52,054 nucleotides of DNA from Candidatus Limnocylindrales bacterium. GTDB lineage: Bacteria > Chloroflexota > Limnocylindria > Limnocylindrales > CSP1-4. This document shows positions 37,639-45,476 of the stretch, piece by piece. The notes under the pieces were generated by a model. It did not search any database. It was not told where the DNA came from and saw only the letters and a list, made by a program, of their open reading frames with translations. The stretch is from contig JANWLH010000128.1 in the NCBI GenBank assembly GCA_025450915.1, positions 1-52,054 on the forward strand. The letters are read 5' to 3'. Both the position numbers and the translations under genes were made by a program. Position 1 is the first letter of the stretch, and every line of letters starts with the position of its first letter.

Positions 37639-38766
37639 ATGAAGATCGCCGACTTCGAGCTCGAGCGCTATTTCGCCCGCTGGGAGTTCGCGGTCCGGCA
37701 CCTCCTGTGTGCCTCGGACCTCGAGGGGTACCCGATGGCCGCGCTGCTCGAGCTCGCCGACGACGAGACCCGCGGGCTGTGGCACGACCTCCGGCTGGGC
37801 TATACCGAATCGAGCGGCCACCCGCTCCTGCGGGCCGCGATTGCCGGCCTGTACGAGACGGTCGACCCCGACGAGGTCCTCGTCTTCTCGGGTGCCGAGG
37901 AAGCGATCTACTGCCTGCTGAGCGTCGCCGTGGGCGCCGGCGATCACGTGATCGTGACCTGGCCTGGCTACCAGAGCCTCTACGAGGTGGCCCGGGTGGC
38001 CGGTGCCGACGTCAGCCTCCACGAGCTCCGGCAGGCCGACGGCTGGGCGCTCGACGTCGACCGGATTCGGGCCGCCGTCCGGCCAACGACCCGCCTGATC
38101 GTCGTGAATGCTCCGCACAACCCGACCGGGATGCTGCCATCCCACGCCGAATGGCGGACGCTGACCGAGCTGTGCGCCGAGGCCGGCGTGACGCTTTTCG
38201 CCGACGAGGTCTACCGGTTCCTCGAATACGACGACGCCGACCGCCTGCCGGCGGGCGCCGACGCCCTGCCGGCCGGGATCAGCCTGGGCGTGATGTCGAA
38301 GTCGTTCGCGATGGCCGGCCTGCGAATCGGCTGGCTGGCGACCCACGATCGGGCCCTGCTCGAGCGCTGCGCGAGCTTCAAGGACTACACCACGATCTGC
38401 CCGTCTGCCCCGGCCGAGATCCTCAGCCTGATCGGGCTCCGGGCCCGCACGAGCGTCCTCGAGCGATCGCGGGCGATCATTTCCACGAACCTTGCCGTCC
38501 TCGATCGGCTGGTCGCCGAGCGACCCGAGATCCTGACCTGGGTCCGGCCGCGGGCGGGCTCGGTCGCCTATCCGGAGCTGACCCTGGCCGGCCGGTTCAC
38601 GGGCTGGGACGCGGATCGATTCGCGGCCGAGCTCGTCGAGGCGGAGGGCGTCCTCCTCCTTCCGGGTTCGCGCTTCGGCCAGCCCGGCAACCACGTCCGG
38701 CTCGGCTTCGGGCGGCTCGACCTGCCGGAGGCGGTCGCGGGCCTGGAGCGCTTCGCCGCCGGCTGA
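37639..38766 (+). CDS. PLP-dependent aminotransferase, class I/II
   Basis: This 375-residue fold-type I aminotransferase has YTESSGHPLLRAAIAG (substrate/PLP region), NAPHNPTG with Asn161, Asp189 in FADEVYR, and the Schiff-base lysine Lys221 in VMSKSFAMAGLRIGW. Arg residues near the C-terminus (NHVRLGFGR) bind the substrate carboxylate. The N-terminus (DFELERYFARWEFAVRHLLC) is of the type found in unusual amino-acid aminotransferases, for example arginine-hydroxylation-pathway PLP enzymes. Substrate is not predictable. The stop lies 4 nt from the convergent ECF S gene. Confidence 0.86.
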   Translation: MKIADFELERYFARWEFAVRHLLCASDLEGYPMAALLELADDETRGLWHDLRLGYTESSGHPLLRAAIAGLYETVDPDEVLVFSGAEEAIYCLLSVAVGAGDHVIVTWPGYQSLYEVARVAGADVSLHELRQADGWALDVDRIRAAVRPTTRLIVVNAPHNPTGMLPSHAEWRTLTELCAEAGVTLFADEVYRFLEYDDADRLPAGADALPAGISLGVMSKSFAMAGLRIGWLATHDRALLERCASFKDYTTICPSAPAEILSLIGLRARTSVLERSRAIISTNLAVLDRLVAERPEILTWVRPRAGSVAYPELTLAGRFTGWDADRFAAELVEAEGVLLLPGSRFGQPGNHVRLGFGRLDLPEAVAGLERFAAG

Positions 38767-38770
38767 GGGA

Positions 38771-39535
38771 TCAGGCCGGGGTCGCGCTCGACGCTGCCAC
38801 GAATCTGAATGACGACCTGGCGCGGAGCCGGGCGAGGGCTGCGAGGACCGGCGGTCCCAGGGCCAGGATCATCAGCGCGTTCCCGACGCCGCGGAACGCG
38901 TCGTAGCCGGCCGACGTCAGCAGGTAGAACTGGCCGAACCGGGCGATCGTGCCGCCGGTGCCCAGCCCGGCGACGTAGCCGAGCTCGGGCGCGCCCTGGA
39001 AGAAGGCCCAGTCCCAGAGATCCATCGCCGCACCGAACGCGAAGCCAGCCACGATGCCGTACGCCGCCAGGAGGACGAAGTCGCGCCGGGTCGGCCGCCG
39101 GTCGAGGCCACCGCTGATGATCCCCGCTCCGAGCCCAACCCAGCCCGCGGCGAAGATCTGGTACGGCAGCCACGGCCCGAGGCCGCCGCTGACGATCGCC
39201 GATACGAGCATCGCGACGGTTCCTGTCAGGAAGCCATAGCTCGGGCCGAAGACGTAGCCGGCACACAGGACGAGGAAGAAGAACGGGCTGAAGCCGGCGA
39301 GGCCGGTGATCAGGGCCAGGCGCATCGCGGCGGCGAGGGCCGCCAGGCAGGCCAGCAGGGCGATGCCCTTGGCGTCGAGCCGTCGTGTTCCGATCTCGAT
39401 CGAGCCCAGGGCGACGATCGTCGCCAGGGCCACCGTCGCCGGGATCGATCCGCTCGGCGGCTCGATCCCGAGGTATGGCAGCAGGAAGAGCAGGCCGCCG
39501 ACGATCGACGCGAGGAGCAGCCCGGCGGCGGTCAC
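38771..39535 (-). CDS. ECF transporter S component, probably for cobalamin (CbrT-like)
   Basis: This 254-residue protein with about six membrane helices is the last gene of the riboswitch operon. Features of an S component include SPFFFLVLCAGYVFGPSYGFLTG between helices (long central segment) and the loop GGLDRRPTRRDF. S components bind the vitamin and topple to release it inside. Sequence alone does not tell the vitamin, but the upstream cobalamin riboswitch and transcobalamin-like proteins point to B12 or a related corrinoid. ATG at 39535 overlaps the ATPase stop (ATGA). Confidence 0.8.
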   Translation of the reverse strand: MTAAGLLLASIVGGLLFLLPYLGIEPPSGSIPATVALATIVALGSIEIGTRRLDAKGIALLACLAALAAAMRLALITGLAGFSPFFFLVLCAGYVFGPSYGFLTGTVAMLVSAIVSGGLGPWLPYQIFAAGWVGLGAGIISGGLDRRPTRRDFVLLAAYGIVAGFAFGAAMDLWDWAFFQGAPELGYVAGLGTGGTIARFGQFYLLTSAGYDAFRGVGNALMILALGPPVLAALARLRARSSFRFVAASSATPA

Positions 39536-40956
39536 GACGCCTTCGCCTCGAGCACTGGGCCGACGGTTGGAGGCTCGGACTCCGTTACCCGGCCGTCCGC
39601 GATGACGAGCACGCGATCGGCGACCTCGGCAACCAGGTCCCGGTCGTGGGTCGCGACCACCACCGAGCAGCCGTCTGCCCGGAGGCGATCGAGCACCCGG
39701 GCGAGCGACCGGCGGGCGAGCTCGTCCATGCCCCGGGTCGGCTCATCGAGCAACGCGATCGCAGGGTTGCCGGCGAGGATGACCGCCAGCGCGCCGCGTT
39801 GCCGCTCGCCGGCGCTGAGATCGCGCGGGTCACGCTCCGCGAGCTCGGCCAGCCCGAATTCCGCGAGGGCGGCCCGGCCGGCGGCCTCCAGCTCGCCCTG
39901 ACCACGTGCTGGCCCAGGGCGATTGGTGGCCGCTCGCTCGAGCGTCCAGAGGACCTCGGCCAGCAGGCTCGGGCGGTGGAGGAGCGCCCCGGGATCCTGG
40001 GGCAGGTACGCGGTCCGGCCCGGGAGTCGGTCGACCGAGCCCGAGAGCGGCGGGAGCAGGCCGGCGATCGCCCGCAACAGCGTCGTCTTGCCGCTGCCGT
40101 TCGCACCGGTCAGGGCAAGGACCTCACCAGGCTGTCCGCTCAATCCGCCACAGGAGACCAGGGGAATGCCGCCGGGTCCGACGACGAGCTGATCGGTCGA
40201 CCAGGCCGGCTGATCCGCGCTTGCCGATCTCGCTGCCGGCGGCCGTAGCCGGGCCGGCGGTCCGACGAGGATCGGCCGCCCTGCCGGAGCGTCGACGCGG
40301 CCCCCGGCCAGCCTGACAAACGATGTGGCCACCGGCACCAGCCGCTCGAGCCGGTGCTCGGCGATCAGGATTGCGGTGCCACCGGCGGCGAGGTCGAGGC
40401 ACCCGTCGAGGACGGCCGCCTCGCCGCTTGCGTCCAGCTCTGAGGTCGGCTCATCGAGGACGATGAGTCGCGGCGCCATCGCGAGGACCGAGGCGATCGC
40501 CACGCGCTGGCGTTCGCCGCCGGACAGGGTGCCGACCCGTCGGTCGCGCAGGCCTTCGAGCCCGAGGCGTTCGAGCGCTGCGCCGACGCGCAGGACCATC
40601 GCGGCGCGGCCGATGCCCAGGTTCTCGAGCCCGAATGCGACCTCGCGCTCGACGCTGCCGTAGACGACCTGCCGCTCGGGGTCCTGGAAGACGAAGCCGA
40701 CGTCACGGGCGAGGACCCGGGTCGCCGTGCGGCTGACGTCGTGGCCGAAGACGGTCGCAGTCCCGCCGATCCGGCCGCCGTGGAAGTGGGGGATCAGGCC
40801 ATTGAACAGGCGCAGCAGCGACGACTTGCCGCCCCCGGAGGGTCCGACGACGACGGTCAGGCCGGGCTCGAGCTCGAGGTTCACATCGACCAGGGCGGGA
40901 ATCTCTCCCGGATACCAGTAGGAGAGATCGTCCAGGCTCGCGAGTGCGTCGCTCAT
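39532..40956 (-). CDS. ECF transporter energising ATPase, fused EcfA-EcfA'
   Basis: One 474-residue chain holds two ABC ATPase domains. Domain 1 has Walker A GPSGGGKS (38-45), signature LSGGERQ (144-150) and LIVLDEP. Domain 2 has Walker A GANGSGKT (284-291), signature LSAGERQ (380-386) and ALLDEP. This is the usual fused pair of ECF transporters. ATG at 40956 overlaps the T-component stop. A longer upstream frame (to 41502) is a shadow of that gene. ATP hydrolysis drives toppling of the S component. Confidence 0.93.
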   Translation of the reverse strand: MSDALASLDDLSYWYPGEIPALVDVNLELEPGLTVVVGPSGGGKSSLLRLFNGLIPHFHGGRIGGTATVFGHDVSRTATRVLARDVGFVFQDPERQVVYGSVEREVAFGLENLGIGRAAMVLRVGAALERLGLEGLRDRRVGTLSGGERQRVAIASVLAMAPRLIVLDEPTSELDASGEAAVLDGCLDLAAGGTAILIAEHRLERLVPVATSFVRLAGGRVDAPAGRPILVGPPARLRPPAARSASADQPAWSTDQLVVGPGGIPLVSCGGLSGQPGEVLALTGANGSGKTTLLRAIAGLLPPLSGSVDRLPGRTAYLPQDPGALLHRPSLLAEVLWTLERAATNRPGPARGQGELEAAGRAALAEFGLAELAERDPRDLSAGERQRGALAVILAGNPAIALLDEPTRGMDELARRSLARVLDRLRADGCSVVVATHDRDLVAEVADRVLVIADGRVTESEPPTVGPVLEAKAS

Positions 40957-41768
40957 GGCCAGATCGCCACGGCCGGCAGCAGCGCAGCGACGAACATGGC
41001 CGGGCTGACCGGGGGGATCGAGAGGCCCGGGTAGGGATACCAGTCGACGGCGACGCCGGCCGCCCGCGCCCACACGGCCAGGGCGATTGCGGCGACCGAG
41101 ACGACGACGACGATCGAGTCGCGCAGCCTCCAGGCCCGCGGCGCGTACCGGCTGCGCGGTCCCGAGCCGAACGCCCGCGACTCCATGGCTTCGGCGAGCT
41201 CGAGCGAGCCTTCGACGGCGGTGATCGCGACGGGCACGATGACGTCGGCCCACGACCGGAGGCCGGCTGGTCGCCAGCCGCGCATCGTCTGGGCGTCGCG
41301 CACCTGGCCGAACGACCGTCCGATCCCGGGCACCAGGTTGAGGGCCGCGGCTACGACGATGCCCGCCCGCTCGAGGACCTTGGGCAGCGCGTCGACGAGC
41401 TCGGCCGGCTCGAGGACGTAGGACAGCGGCGCGACGACGAGCACCGCCGCGGCCAGGCCCAGCGCGGCGTCGCTCCCGTAGGCGATCGATTCGAGGGTCC
41501 ATGGGCCACCGATGACCGGCCAGCCGCCGGGCAGCGAGATGAGCGCGGTATCACCAAGATGCCCGACCGCCACGTTGAGGAAGACGGCGCCAACGGTCGT
41601 GAATGCGATCGCCCGGACTAGGAAGCGGAGGTCCTGCTCGGGCCGGCTCCAGGTCCGCAGGACGTTGACCGCGATCAGGGCGATCAGGGCGCGATAGATC
41701 GGGTTCGTCGTGGACAGGGCGACGACGAGCCCGGCAAGCGACCAGACGATCAGGGCGCGGGCGTTCAC
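40953..41768 (-). CDS. ecfT: ECF transporter transmembrane T component
   Basis: This 271-residue membrane protein has about six helices. It carries two cytoplasmic coupling-helix motifs of Ala/Ser-Arg-Gly type: QTMRGWRP at about 160-167 and MESRAFGSG at 195-203. They contact the ATPases. GTG at 41768 overlaps the preceding stop (GTGA). It couples the fused ATPase downstream with the S component. All five genes from 43779 down to 38771 are spaced by 2 nt or overlap, so they form one transcript. Confidence 0.9.
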   Translation of the reverse strand: MNARALIVWSLAGLVVALSTTNPIYRALIALIAVNVLRTWSRPEQDLRFLVRAIAFTTVGAVFLNVAVGHLGDTALISLPGGWPVIGGPWTLESIAYGSDAALGLAAAVLVVAPLSYVLEPAELVDALPKVLERAGIVVAAALNLVPGIGRSFGQVRDAQTMRGWRPAGLRSWADVIVPVAITAVEGSLELAEAMESRAFGSGPRSRYAPRAWRLRDSIVVVVSVAAIALAVWARAAGVAVDWYPYPGLSIPPVSPAMFVAALLPAVAIWP

Positions 41769-42619
41769 CGGGTTGGTCCGCCCGAGCCGGGCCGGCGCCT
41801 GAGCATTGCCAGTCCGGCGAGGCCCGCGATCGCCACGATCGCGGCCACGAGGGCCGGTGTCCCGTCCCCGGTTGAACCGGTGGGGGAGTCAGCATTGCCG
41901 CCACCCACGACCGGGCTCGACGGTCCTGGAGTGGCCTCGATCGCGGCGACCGCGCCGCTCCCGGCCGGCGTCGGGGGAACCGAAGATGCCGCCGGGCCAG
42001 CGCTCGACGCCGCCGGCTGGGACGGCGCCGTAGAGCCCGGGGGTGGCGGCGTGACGGGCCGGGGCGTCGCGGTCTGCGTCGGTGCCTGAGTGGCGGTTGG
42101 CCGCGGCGTCGGCCTGGGCGTGACGCCCGGCGTCGGCGTTGGCGACGGGCAGTTGCCCAGGCTGCTCGGCGGCGACATTCCCGTCTGCGCTTCGAAACGG
42201 AAGCCTTCCGCGTCGCCGTCGCCGAAGACCAGGGCGGAGACGCCCAGATTGGAGCTCGCCCAGCTTCCGCCTTTGCGAGCGACGAAAATCTCCCAAAACG
42301 GGCTGTTGCTCGTCCAGCAGCCCGACGGAATCTCGGCCGGCTCGCCGTCGATCCAGCAGATCGCATTACTCAAGCCGCCGAAGTCCATCGTCACGTACTT
42401 GACGCCCGATGCGATGAGGACCTGCTCTCCGGTCAGTGACGAGCCGCTGAACGCGATACATCGAGTCACCGTGGAGCCGTCGCCGTGCTCGACGACGAGG
42501 GCGACGTGGTGGCTTCCGGTCGCCGCGTCGCAGGTCGCCGCCGGCCTCGACCAGGCAATTGCCATGATCGGGACCTGGACGGCGACCGCGACGAGGACCG
42601 CCAGGAGCAGGTTCCGCAA
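41765..42619 (-). CDS. Surface-anchored DUF4430-like (transcobalamin C-terminal-like) protein
   Basis: This 284-residue protein has a signal peptide (about 1-24) and a beta-rich domain at about 38-145. The domain pattern VVEHGDGSTVTRC, LTGEQVLIASGVKY, ICWIDGEPAEIPSGCW, SPFWEIFVARKGGSW and GDGDAEGFRF resembles DUF4430 domains, which are homologous to the C-terminal domain of intrinsic factor/transcobalamin. A Pro/Thr linker (157-250) and a C-terminal membrane helix (254-272) followed by RRR anchor it to the cell surface. TTG at 42619 begins 2 nt after the preceding stop. Predicted role: half of a corrinoid-binding clamp. Confidence 0.75.
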   Translation of the reverse strand: MRNLLLAVLVAVAVQVPIMAIAWSRPAATCDAATGSHHVALVVEHGDGSTVTRCIAFSGSSLTGEQVLIASGVKYVTMDFGGLSNAICWIDGEPAEIPSGCWTSNSPFWEIFVARKGGSWASSNLGVSALVFGDGDAEGFRFEAQTGMSPPSSLGNCPSPTPTPGVTPRPTPRPTATQAPTQTATPRPVTPPPPGSTAPSQPAASSAGPAASSVPPTPAGSGAVAAIEATPGPSSPVVGGGNADSPTGSTGDGTPALVAAIVAIAGLAGLAMLRRRPGSGGPTR

Positions 42620-42621
42620 CC

Positions 42622-43779
42622 TCAGCGTGAGAGCCGCCTCGACCAGAGGCGGAGGCTGGCGCCGAGTGCCGCGAGGCTGAGCATCAGGAGCACGGGCAGC
42701 AGGCCGCCGTCAGCTGGCGTCTGACCCAGCGGCGCCGCAGCTGCCGTCGCGGGTGGGGTGGCCCCGGTCGGCCGGGGAGTCGCGACCGCCGCGCACACGG
42801 CCGCCGGCAGGGCCGCACCCGCCGTCCACGTCGTGCTTCCCGGGAACGGGACCTTGGCGAGGCCCGCCGGGACCTGGCTCGTCGTGAAGGCGTCGGGACC
42901 GGGATTGCCCGGGAAGGTGAAGCCGCCGTTGGCCTTGGACTGGAACGTCAGCAGGTTGGTCAGGGCGGTGTGGCCACTCTTGGTCCAGCTCGGCGCCGAC
43001 GGGTTCTCACCGGCGGCCACCAGCCCCTGGATCACGTTCGCATCGGAGTCGGGGTCGCTGAACGGCGACCCGAACGCGGCGCTGTACGGGAATCCACCAT
43101 CGCTGAGCTGCTGGGCGTGGAGGTAGGCCAGGGCGCTCGTGATCGAAGCGTCGGACGTCGGCGTCCCCGCGGCGACGAGGGCCTCGAGCGCGATCGCCGT
43201 CGAGTTCGTGTCGCCGCCGCCGACGGCATCCTTGACGCCCTGGAAGTCCCACGAGCCGTCGGTGTCCTGGGCCGCGATCAACTCGGTCACGGCGCCGGCC
43301 GGCAGGGGATGGCCCGCATCGGCCGCCGCCACCAGGGCGAGGATCGCCAGCGACTGGGTGTACGTCTGGCCGTCACCATAGGCGTGGGTCGTCGAATCGA
43401 ACGTCGCGTCGAGCGCCGTCAGGAGATCGTGCCCGCCGAATGCGGTCGGGTCGAGCTTGGCGTCGATCGCCGCGAGGGCCTCCTTCGCGACGAGTGACGC
43501 GTTCGTCAGCGAGCCGCCGATGCCCGCCTCGAGGTAGTCGAACGCCGTGCTGCCGCCGGACTTCTCGAGAATCGTGGGGTCGAAACCGGCCGCGGCCGCT
43601 CCGAAGACGTAGTCGGCTGTCACGCCCGGCGCTCCGCCGACGGACCCGTCACTGGCCTGTCCCGAGGCGAGGAACTGGAGCGCGCACGTCGCCGGATCCG
43701 GCGCTGCCCAGGCAGCTGGGACGTTGATGAGAAGGAGTCCTGTGGCCAGTATCGCGCTGGCCCACCTGAGTCGACCCAC
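42622..43779 (-). CDS. Surface-anchored alpha/alpha-barrel repeat protein (transcobalamin N-terminal-like)
   Basis: GTG at 43779 follows GGAGGA (43786-43791). The 385-residue product has a signal peptide (cleavage near AWA-APD, residue 26). Prenyltransferase/squalene-oxidase-type repeats follow: ASDGSVGG, DTDGSWDF, LSDGGFPY, ANGGFTFP, each paired with helices such as TNSTAIALEALVAAG and SDANVIQGLVAAGENP. A short Pro/Thr linker leads to a C-terminal helix (359-376) and RRLSR tail. This is the alpha6/alpha6 barrel fold of the N-terminal domain of intrinsic factor and transcobalamin. Being first behind the cobalamin riboswitch supports B12 capture. Terpene cyclase activity is unlikely for a secreted protein. 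Confidence 0.78.
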   Translation of the reverse strand: MGRLRWASAILATGLLLINVPAAWAAPDPATCALQFLASGQASDGSVGGAPGVTADYVFGAAAAGFDPTILEKSGGSTAFDYLEAGIGGSLTNASLVAKEALAAIDAKLDPTAFGGHDLLTALDATFDSTTHAYGDGQTYTQSLAILALVAAADAGHPLPAGAVTELIAAQDTDGSWDFQGVKDAVGGGDTNSTAIALEALVAAGTPTSDASITSALAYLHAQQLSDGGFPYSAAFGSPFSDPDSDANVIQGLVAAGENPSAPSWTKSGHTALTNLLTFQSKANGGFTFPGNPGPDAFTTSQVPAGLAKVPFPGSTTWTAGAALPAAVCAAVATPRPTGATPPATAAAAPLGQTPADGGLLPVLLMLSLAALGASLRLWSRRLSR

Positions 43780-43816
43780 GGTGGTTCCTCCGACGGCGAA
43801 CGGCCCACACCGCGGA

Positions 43817-43834
43817 AACCTGCCGTCAGAGGTT
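43817..43834 (-). promoter_or_regulatory. Possible anti-P1 hairpin of the riboswitch
   Basis: AACCT (minus strand, from 43834) pairs with AGGTT (to 43817) around an 8-nt loop. The hairpin uses bases of the 3' strand of P1 (43821-43826), so the two are mutually exclusive. It could be the alternative fold in the unbound state. Short, so uncertain. Confidence 0.3.
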
Positions 43835-44016
43835 CATCTACCGATCTGCGCGGGTGGGATGACACATCCCGTTCGACCAGGTCTCCTGGCTCGCGGATCG
43901 ACACGTCCGGCCGCCTTCCCGGGCTCACGCCCAGTGGCATCACTGGCCGGCCGTTCCCCGCTGACAGTTGCGCGACAGCGCCGGATTTCCACCGGCTTCC
44001 CTTGGGTCAAACGGCA
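43821..44016 (-). ncRNA. Cobalamin riboswitch
   Basis: Read on the minus strand, the region contains the classic core: GGGAAGCCGGTGGAAATCC, then CAACTGTCAGCGG, and the B12 box GCCAGGAGACCT (43879-43890). The closing P1 helix TGCCGT (44011-44016) pairs with ACGGCA (43821-43826). It controls the five-gene operon starting at 43779, 42 nt downstream. There is no T-tract terminator, so control of translation is more likely than attenuation. Confidence 0.93.
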
Positions 44017-44034
44017 CTATTCAGTTGTCCGGCC

Positions 44035-44064
44035 ATGGTACTCGCCGAACGATTCCCCGGTCAG
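44035..44064 (-). promoter_or_regulatory. Promoter of the cobalamin operon
   Basis: On the minus strand CTGACC (44059-44064), an 18-nt spacer and TACCAT (44035-44040) form a -35/-10 pair. The start would lie near 44028, 12 nt ahead of the riboswitch P1 helix, which is the expected place. Confidence 0.5.
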
Positions 44065-44165
44065 CGCCCTCGGTGGGGTCGTTGTCGCACGCAGATCGAC
44101 AAACAGCGCGGTTCTGAGCTGACCGACGGGTTCTGGCTCAGTCACGCGGTGGATTCGTCGCTGTG

Positions 44166-44183
44166 TTAGCCGCCAACGGCTAA
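44166..44183. terminator. Hairpin between gcvT-like gene and riboswitch
   Basis: TTAGCCG, loop CCAA, CGGCTAA: a perfect 7-bp stem about 100 nt downstream of the GcvT-like stop (minus strand). There is no U-tract, so termination is only possible. The rest of 44065-44282 shows no gene. Confidence 0.35.
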
Positions 44184-44282
44184 TTCCGGCAAGCCGAGCG
44201 AGTTTGGGCGGCTCAGAACGGGCGATTTGTCACGTGGCCCGGGACATCCAACCCGATCCGCCCGCGAGGGACGACGACGCGG

Positions 44283-45476
44283 CTACGCGCGCTTGCGCTG
44301 CAGGTCCAGGAAGGGCAATTTGACGACCGTCGCGGCGACCCGGCCGCGGCGGGCCTCGACCGTCCACTCTGCCTGGAGCTGCGTGCCGGGCCGCTCGTAG
44401 GCGGGGGGCACCGAGGCGAGAGCGATCGGCTTCTTGAGGATCGGGCTCCAGCCGTGGCTCGTGATCCGGCCGACCTGCCGACCGCCGGCATCGTAGAGCG
44501 GGATCGCGGAGCGATCGACCACGGCCGGGGCGCCCGGAGGCAGGCCCTGGGCGTTGTACATCGCGTCGATGTCCGGCCAGCTGATCTCGAGCCCGACGAG
44601 CCGTCGGCGTGGCCCGCCCCGACGACGCTCCTCGAGCAGCGCACGCCGCCCGACGAAATCGCCCTTCTCGAAGTCGACGAGCTTGCCCAGCCCGATCTCC
44701 CCGGGCGAGTAGGCCTGGTCGGCGTTCATCGCATGGCGGGCGCTCGTGTAGTCGACCTCGAGGAGGATGAGCCCGGCCTCCAGCCGGACGACGTCGAGGG
44801 CGATCATCCCGGCCGGCCGGATCCCGTACGGCTTGCCGGCCGTAATGACTGCATCCCACAGGTCGACGGCGCGCTCCGCCGCGACCCACAGCTCATAACC
44901 GAGGTCGCCGGTGTAGCCCGTCCGGCTGATGTCGATCGGGATGCCCGCGATCGTCGCCGTGCGTCGCCGGAAGTAGCGCAGATCGGCGAGGTCGCCGGCC
45001 CCGGCCGCCTCGAGGACCGCCCGGCTGAGCGGCCCCTGGAGGGCCAGCGCGGCAGTCGCCTCGGAGGTGTCGTCGATCGTCACGTCGAGCCCGGCCGCGT
45101 TGAGGCTGAGCCAGCGGAATTGCGGATCGGCCGCGGTCCAGCGGAACCGGTTCGGCCCGAGGCGGTGGATCGTGCCGTCATCGACGACCTTGCCGTCCTC
45201 GTCGCACCACGGGCCGTAGAAGACCTGCCCGACCTTCAGCTTTGTCGCGTCACGAGTGATCACCCGGTCGACGAGCTGCTCCGCGTCGGGTCCGTGGACC
45301 TCGTACTTGTAGAGCGGCGAGACGTCGATCAGGGCCGCCTGCTCGCGGATCGCGTTGTACTCGATGTCGTGGAAGTCGGCGTAGACGCTGGCGGCGAAGT
45401 AGCCCGACCACTCCCGCCATTGCATCTTCCGGTTGTACGCCAGGGTGCGGGCGTGAAAGGCGGTCCCGACGCTCAA
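44283..45476 (-). CDS. GcvT-family aminomethyltransferase
   Basis: This 397-residue protein has the GcvT fold: an N-terminal HARTLAYNRKMQWREWSGY segment, AALIDVSPLYKYEVHGPDAE, CDEDGKVVDDGTIHRLG, LALQGPLSR and RTGYTGDLGYELW, and a C-terminal barrel (GRITSHGWSPILKKPIAL). Relatives transfer C1 units to tetrahydrofolate (glycine cleavage, dimethylglycine or DMSP demethylation). No GcvH or GcvP is nearby, so it is probably a paralogue with another methyl donor. TTG at 45476 follows GGAGG at 45484-45488. It is divergent from two flavoprotein genes that could form the oxidative partner. Confidence 0.85.
   Translation of the reverse strand: MSVGTAFHARTLAYNRKMQWREWSGYFAASVYADFHDIEYNAIREQAALIDVSPLYKYEVHGPDAEQLVDRVITRDATKLKVGQVFYGPWCDEDGKVVDDGTIHRLGPNRFRWTAADPQFRWLSLNAAGLDVTIDDTSEATAALALQGPLSRAVLEAAGAGDLADLRYFRRRTATIAGIPIDISRTGYTGDLGYELWVAAERAVDLWDAVITAGKPYGIRPAGMIALDVVRLEAGLILLEVDYTSARHAMNADQAYSPGEIGLGKLVDFEKGDFVGRRALLEERRRGGPRRRLVGLEISWPDIDAMYNAQGLPPGAPAVVDRSAIPLYDAGGRQVGRITSHGWSPILKKPIALASVPPAYERPGTQLQAEWTVEARRGRVAATVVKLPFLDLQRKRA

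Follow-up and report, generated by a model that had tools for sequence, protein, structure and literature searches.

In animals, vitamin B12 is bound by transcobalamin, intrinsic factor and haptocorrin, each of which is one soluble polypeptide combining an α/α toroid with a β-grasp domain that carries an extra hairpin after its helix. Unlike other ABC importers, energy-coupling factor (ECF) importers have no soluble binding protein. Transcobalamin-like domains of bacteria, together with toroids and CbiO/CbiQ operons, have already been tied to predicted B12 scavenging (Burroughs et al., 2007; PMC1796856), and the SLBB/DUF4430 surface proteins concerned, known mainly from low-GC Gram-positives, planctomycetes and some archaea, include toroid–β-grasp fusions and are encoded in operons with ECF genes, sometimes together with a second β-grasp protein. 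B12 uptake through an ECF module is known for ECF-CbrT from Lactobacillus delbrueckii (6FNP), for whose S component, CbrT, B12 binding and transport, as well as transport of cobinamide, have been measured; the accessible part of that account describes neither a toroid nor a β-grasp lid (PMC5997447). Within the Chloroflexota, a cobalamin riboswitch has served to predict a B12 transporter in Herpetosiphon aurantiacus, which does not synthesize B12, and the available portion of the account describes no surface pair (PMC3766115, 2013). Here, we describe an operon in a 52,054-nucleotide stretch of DNA (contig JANWLH010000128.1, hereafter the window) from a Candidatus Limnocylindrales bacterium of the Chloroflexota, which is probably a riboswitch-controlled cobamide-uptake operon with a split-transcobalamin capture pair feeding a CbrT-like ECF importer.

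The cobalamin riboswitch and the five open reading frames (ORFs) that follow it are all on the minus strand (38771-44025; Table 1), in the order toroid, lid, EcfT, fused double ATPase and S component. The ORF1/ORF2 junction is a 2-base gap and the next three are 4-base overlaps, which, with the Rfam match to the riboswitch, bears out an interpretation made earlier from the DNA letters alone (the sequence-only reading), in which a cobalamin riboswitch was followed by five tightly coupled genes. While the animal carriers are single soluble chains, the corresponding domains of the window are predicted to reside in two proteins, each with its own membrane anchor, whose genes accompany those of an ECF importer, and no sequence similarity between the two groups is detectable by simple search. 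The lid is also unlike the SLBB/DUF4430 proteins described previously (PMC1796856) in being too divergent for the DUF4430 model and split from its toroid. CbrT and other S components draw on one common ECF module (PMC5997447); the S component of the window belongs to a five-gene operon of its own, in which the ATPase is fused.

The lid protein, ORF2, eluded direct searches: it did not match Pfam DUF4430 (PF14478; curated cut-off 23.8 bits), only one of its 35 homologues did so, at an E value of 0.17, Pfam and phmmer searches returned nothing but noise (aldehyde dehydrogenase, E 0.15-0.3), and hmmsearch with the family profile found no match among PDB sequences. Modelling with AlphaFold2 and 35 homologues nevertheless gave a structure [predicted local distance difference test (pLDDT) 87.7, predicted template-modelling score (pTM) 0.83] with the element order strand–strand–helix–hairpin–strand–strand–strand. 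Such an order, with the hairpin inserted after the helix, is that of the transcobalamin-type β-grasp (Burroughs et al., PMC1796856), and it places the model in the transcobalamin-like clade of the SLBB superfamily. When the model was compared with the PDB using Foldseek, the first 18 matches were transcobalamin, haptocorrin, intrinsic factor and 3u7z, a Ruminococcus protein and the sole bacterial one among them, with unrelated folds appearing from rank 19; the 18 include transcobalamin:CD320 complexes, the isolated transcobalamin β domain both free and with cyanocobalamin, and rat and bovine transcobalamin. In addition, hhalign related the ORF2 family to bona fide DUF4430 domains from the loci described below at 92.4% (E 5e-7), compared with 0.2% for a control using the toroid alignment. 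ORF2 is a distant relative of the DUF4430/transcobalamin C-domain, revealed only by profile–profile and fold comparison; the DUF4430-like character proposed in the sequence-only reading is upheld at this level, but not by the direct Pfam search. Weak matches to ORF2 as a query, which many genomes of the class gave at E values between 1e-3 and 1e-7, were set aside as mostly reflecting the Pro/Thr-rich linker, low-scoring lid matches on the toroid ORFs of loci L052, L054 and L055 were disregarded, and no block of the lid alignment was conserved enough for a collection search.

ORF1 matches Pfam SQHop_cyclase_C (PF13243) with 26.9 bits, just above the cut-off of 26.1. Its AlphaFold2 model (22 homologues; pLDDT 94.1, pTM 0.92) comprises 13 helical elements that form a closed α/α toroid, and its fold matches are likewise toroids, in line with the α6-barrel repeat protein recognized earlier. 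Squalene-hopene and other class II cyclases rank first among the PDB matches found by Foldseek, with transcobalamin at rank 30 (E 2.3e-4, TM score 0.58). Where class II cyclases have the acid motif DXDDTA, ORF1 reads DTNSTA, with the middle aspartate replaced by asparagine, and its close relatives among the aligned Chloroflexota proteins resemble it at this position; because of this substitution, cyclase activity of ORF1 is considered unlikely. The toroid alone is too generic to reveal a function, which is revealed instead by the company of its gene. Both ORF1 and ORF2 begin with a hydrophobic stretch and carry a second one at the C-terminus that finishes in basic residues, which makes secretion and membrane anchoring a fair prediction for each and agrees with the anchoring already proposed for the two proteins. 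Models lacking the barrel or the DUF4430 fold, which the sequence-only reading had named as grounds for giving it up, were not obtained: a toroid was predicted for ORF1 and a transcobalamin-type β-grasp for ORF2.

The remaining three genes encode the transporter, as had been recognized at the outset. ORF3 belongs to the CbiQ/EcfT family (PF02361, 32.9 bits; cut-off 25). ORF4 matches PF00005 in two stretches (166 bits) and the ECF ATPase model TIGR04520 (250 bits), and contains two Walker A motifs and two signatures of the LSGGERQR/LSAGERQR type. ORF5 scores below the Pfam threshold as an ECF S component, and its match to CbiM is weak; a profile built from 29 homologues found CbrT (6fnp_A) as the best solved structure, with an E value of 8.9e-17 over profile positions 48-240, followed by FolT at 4e-4, and the homology to CbrT spans the S-component domain.

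The riboswitch aptamer is the sole Rfam match in the window, lies 80 bases upstream of ORF1 and is the only cobalamin riboswitch in the genome (2.48 Mb in 170 contigs, 69.6% complete, of which the window is one contig). Between the aptamer and the start codon, an 11-bp hairpin formed by CCUCUGACGGC and GCCGUCGGAGG buries the ORF1 ribosome-binding site GGAGG (43791-43787). The duplex covering this Shine–Dalgarno sequence is stronger than in shuffled controls (p 0.027), and the corresponding duplexes surpass their shuffles at p<0.05 in 15 of the 26 loci tested. The hairpin recurs across the class with the consensus CCUCCGGCGGC / GCCGCCGGAGG, from which that of the window differs by a paired G-C to A-U change. 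Since the leader end of the window does not stand out by its folding z-score (-0.50), the support for the hairpin is comparative. Control by the riboswitch is likely to act at translation, via the hairpin over the ribosome-binding site.

Table 1. Coordinates of the riboswitch, leader hairpin and genes of the operon (positions in the window)
Feature	Position	Strand	Description
Cobalamin riboswitch aptamer RF00174	43859..44025	-	cmscan 106 bits (gathering threshold 31.5), E 1.3e-25, full length 1-189
11-bp leader hairpin	43787..43832	-	RNA fold; CCUCUGACGGC (43832-43822) / GCCGUCGGAGG (43797-43787)
ORF1	42622..43779	-	385 aa, GTG start; predicted signal sequence, α/α toroid (42793-43704), Pro-rich linker, predicted C-terminal membrane anchor
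ORF2	41765..42619	-	284 aa, TTG start; predicted signal sequence, β-grasp domain (42149-42544), Pro/Thr/Ser-rich linker, predicted C-terminal membrane anchor
ORF3	40953..41768	-	271 aa, EcfT/CbiQ transmembrane coupling protein
ORF4	39532..40956	-	474 aa, fused EcfA-EcfA' ATPase
ORF5	38771..39535	-	254 aa, S component related to CbrT

A survey of the class, in which 20 loci were fetched around ORF2 homologues, recovered the order toroid, lid, T, A and S component wherever the contig permits, the toroid of L057 being a stub. The five-gene arrangement is far beyond chance: 18 of these 20 loci share it along with the riboswitch, and the two misses (L051 and L062) are cut at a contig end. Of 177 genomes, 24 encode both a lid and an S component, compared with about four expected by chance, in a set of related genomes for which the p-value is indicative only. 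An S component 87% identical to ORF5 is found in a metagenome-assembled genome (MAG) named 'Chloroflexi bacterium', isolate palsa_1033 (L032), which places the host in this phylum; isolate names such as this one point to a soil bacterium as the host.

Across the phylum, the uncharacterized NCBIfam model SCO2322 gave sub-cut-off matches in 30 of 251 genomes, reaching the Chloroflexota lids with E values down to 3e-11. A toroid accompanies the lid in all 20 loci fetched from these matches, mostly with ECF genes, and nine of the 12 loci scanned have a cobalamin or AdoCbl riboswitch. In five loci (L085, L086, L087, L093 and L097) the lid and EcfT genes are separated by cobC and cobS. The two surface domains are also found joined: L094 and L099 encode a single toroid–toroid–lid–anchor polypeptide, and L091 a lid–toroid–toroid fusion with a second lid alongside. 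Among the indirect evidence that the two surface proteins of the window may cooperate, these natural fusions count most. Tandem barrels, as in the fused proteins of L091, L094, L099 and L138, also occur in the split format (L047:6302-8518), and in L083 (4652-6712) two consecutive lid-type proteins stand beside one toroid, echoing the paired β-grasp proteins of Firmicutes operons.

The identical five-gene order extends to a Streptomyces plasmid (NZ_CP016083), where it adjoins metE and riboswitches precede both the uptake operon and metE. The first protein of this operon is itself a lid–toroid–toroid fusion, and the annotations read 'prenyltransferase/squalene oxidase repeat', 'hypothetical', EcfT, ATPase and S component. 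The plasmid fusion and lid protein match the Streptomyces families SCO2321 and SCO2322 (NCBIfam NF053823 and NF040672), which are named without a function; every match to these models is below the curated cut-offs and membership is not claimed. The metE gene of Streptomyces sp. SAT1 (L138:9790-12500), encoding the B12-independent methionine synthase, has its own cobalamin riboswitch and is convergent with the plasmid operon; a further toroid-like protein, annotated as hypothetical, is encoded divergently from that operon (L138:296-1708), and a similar one is present in L140. More distant relatives of the ECF genes, in Dehalococcoidia and Peptococcaceae, have no cobalamin riboswitch but lie beside genes for proteins that Pfam recognizes as true DUF4430 (44-47 bits); in the Dehalococcoidia, toroids are present as well. 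A cobyric acid synthase gene (cobQ; L036:10811-12364) lies near the DUF4430-plus-ECF operon of a Peptococcaceae MAG.

The genome of the host encodes three proteins with a B12-binding domain, which we read as the small subunit of methylmalonyl-CoA mutase and two corrinoid proteins. Its only protein of the tetrapyrrole-methylase family (TP_methylase) is RsmI by sequence; no corrin-ring methyltransferases were found in the roughly 70% of the genome that is assembled, nor was a BtuC-type permease above the cut-off. These features are suggestive of a host that uses B12 without making it. In the window, a gene for a GcvT-type aminomethyltransferase (44283-45476) lies on the same strand about 260 bases upstream of the riboswitch, with no evident link to B12. 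A scan for intrinsic terminators in the operon region was empty.

Given the riboswitch, the CbrT-like S component, the cobC/cobS neighbours of relatives and the natural two-domain fusions, import of B12 or a related cobamide by the operon is very likely. The proposal that ORF1 and ORF2 clamp one cobamide between them is somewhat less secure, although we consider it reasonably probable. The split transcobalamin-like B12-uptake system put forward in the sequence-only reading is thus partly supported, by features that were computed directly, namely the riboswitch, the folds, the CbrT relationship, the conserved gene company (including cobC and cobS) and the fusions; the promoter that it had also listed was not recovered by a sigma-70 consensus scan of 38600-44300, a scan that does not exclude other promoter types.

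A number of observations weigh against this interpretation. In the fold comparison, ORF1 is not nearer to transcobalamin than to the cyclases and prenyltransferases, the cyclases coming first. L033 (2015-2727) has a riboswitch, lid and ECF genes without a toroid, and in L057 (5421-6622), which has the same elements, the toroid gene has shrunk to a signal, first helix and tail; this stub may reflect either a true deletion or a collapse in the assembly, and no other toroid was found in the genome concerned (G036, 92% complete). As these two loci retain riboswitch, lid and transporter without an intact toroid, the barrel is usual but perhaps dispensable. Moreover, a clamp is not required in principle, since CbrT alone binds cobalamin with nanomolar affinity (PMC5997447). 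A cobalamin riboswitch is missing from ten more distant ECF loci (Dehalococcoidia, Lokiarchaeota and others), and because the host genome is 70% complete, the absence of B12 synthesis is not proven.

The same loci bear on whether the surface proteins act jointly. In an importer of the same kind, each of them could bind a corrinoid (or the cell wall) by itself, so that a surface store or relay would raise the B12 concentration around the S component, an arrangement that we regard as possible although rather unlikely. It would suit the persistence of lid and transporter in L033 and L057, the existence of a cyanocobalamin-bound structure of the isolated human transcobalamin β domain (5np4) and the position of the lid gene in L090 and L096, between the ATPase and S genes and away from the toroid; on the other hand, the direct fusions in three Chloroflexota loci and one Streptomyces protein favour joint binding, and transcobalamin pairs the two domains likewise. 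A different ligand, within the same architecture and overlapping with the preferred interpretation, would be a corrinoid precursor or another cobamide, such as cobinamide, taken up for salvage. The lower-ligand assembly genes cobC and cobS inside the operon of five relatives and the cobyric acid synthase gene of L036 point in this direction, but the operon of the window showed neither cobS nor cobC, and CbrT, although it carries cobinamide as well, binds it about four times more weakly than cobalamin (PMC5997447); on balance, salvage of this kind also seems unlikely.

Two further readings were rejected. That ORF1 is a squalene- or terpene-cyclase-type enzyme in an operon unrelated to B12 capture is suggested by its Pfam and PDB sequence matches to squalene-hopene cyclase, by the cyclases at the top of its fold list and by the database name 'prenyltransferase/squalene oxidase repeat-containing' for such proteins, but is highly improbable given the DTNSTA motif shared in similar form by its close homologues, the predicted secretion and anchoring, and a genome context that is B12 throughout. 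Transport of cobalt by a CbiMNQO-type system under B12 control would agree with the membership of ORF3 in the CbiQ family and with the frequent control of cobalt transporters by cobalamin riboswitches (PMC3766115). It is very unlikely, as ORF5 resembles CbrT and matches CbiM weakly, Co2+ needs no large capture domains and, with no corrin-ring methyltransferases found in the genome, it would feed no B12 pathway.

Under the preferred interpretation, that of a capture pair coupled to a B12 importer, the riboswitch would turn the operon off, probably at translation, and B12 shortage would free the ribosome-binding site of ORF1. Outside the membrane, a cobamide would then be caught between the tethered ORF1 barrel and ORF2 lid and handed on to the CbrT-like ORF5, and the EcfT/double-ATPase module of ORF3 and ORF4 would drive it inwards. 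On present evidence, the scales tip modestly towards such a two-piece transcobalamin, in which barrel and lid assemble round the cobamide outside the cell and feed a CbrT-type ECF transporter. The open-access literature yielded no report of a bacterial B12 clamp made of two proteins, subscription papers and preprints being outside the search. What is new here is a family of lids whose divergence puts it beyond the reach of the DUF4430 model and which is paired with the barrel as a separate protein; the connection with an S component of the CbrT kind and the occurrence in Streptomyces are likewise new.

If this interpretation is true, the operon encodes a capture device for a class of transporter that is usually described without a separate binding protein, suggesting a way in which ECF importers may capture scarce B12. 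The device would be widespread in the Chloroflexota and also present in the Actinomycetota, whose annotations call the barrel a squalene-oxidase-like repeat protein and the lid hypothetical. A testable function would also become available for two protein families that Streptomyces and Chloroflexota genomes now list as 'SCO2321/SCO2322 family', 'hypothetical' or 'squalene oxidase repeat'. The operon also bears on the origin of the animal B12 carriers: a single phylum contains the two domains split, fused in either order and with barrels single or doubled, so the order of assembly could be traced.

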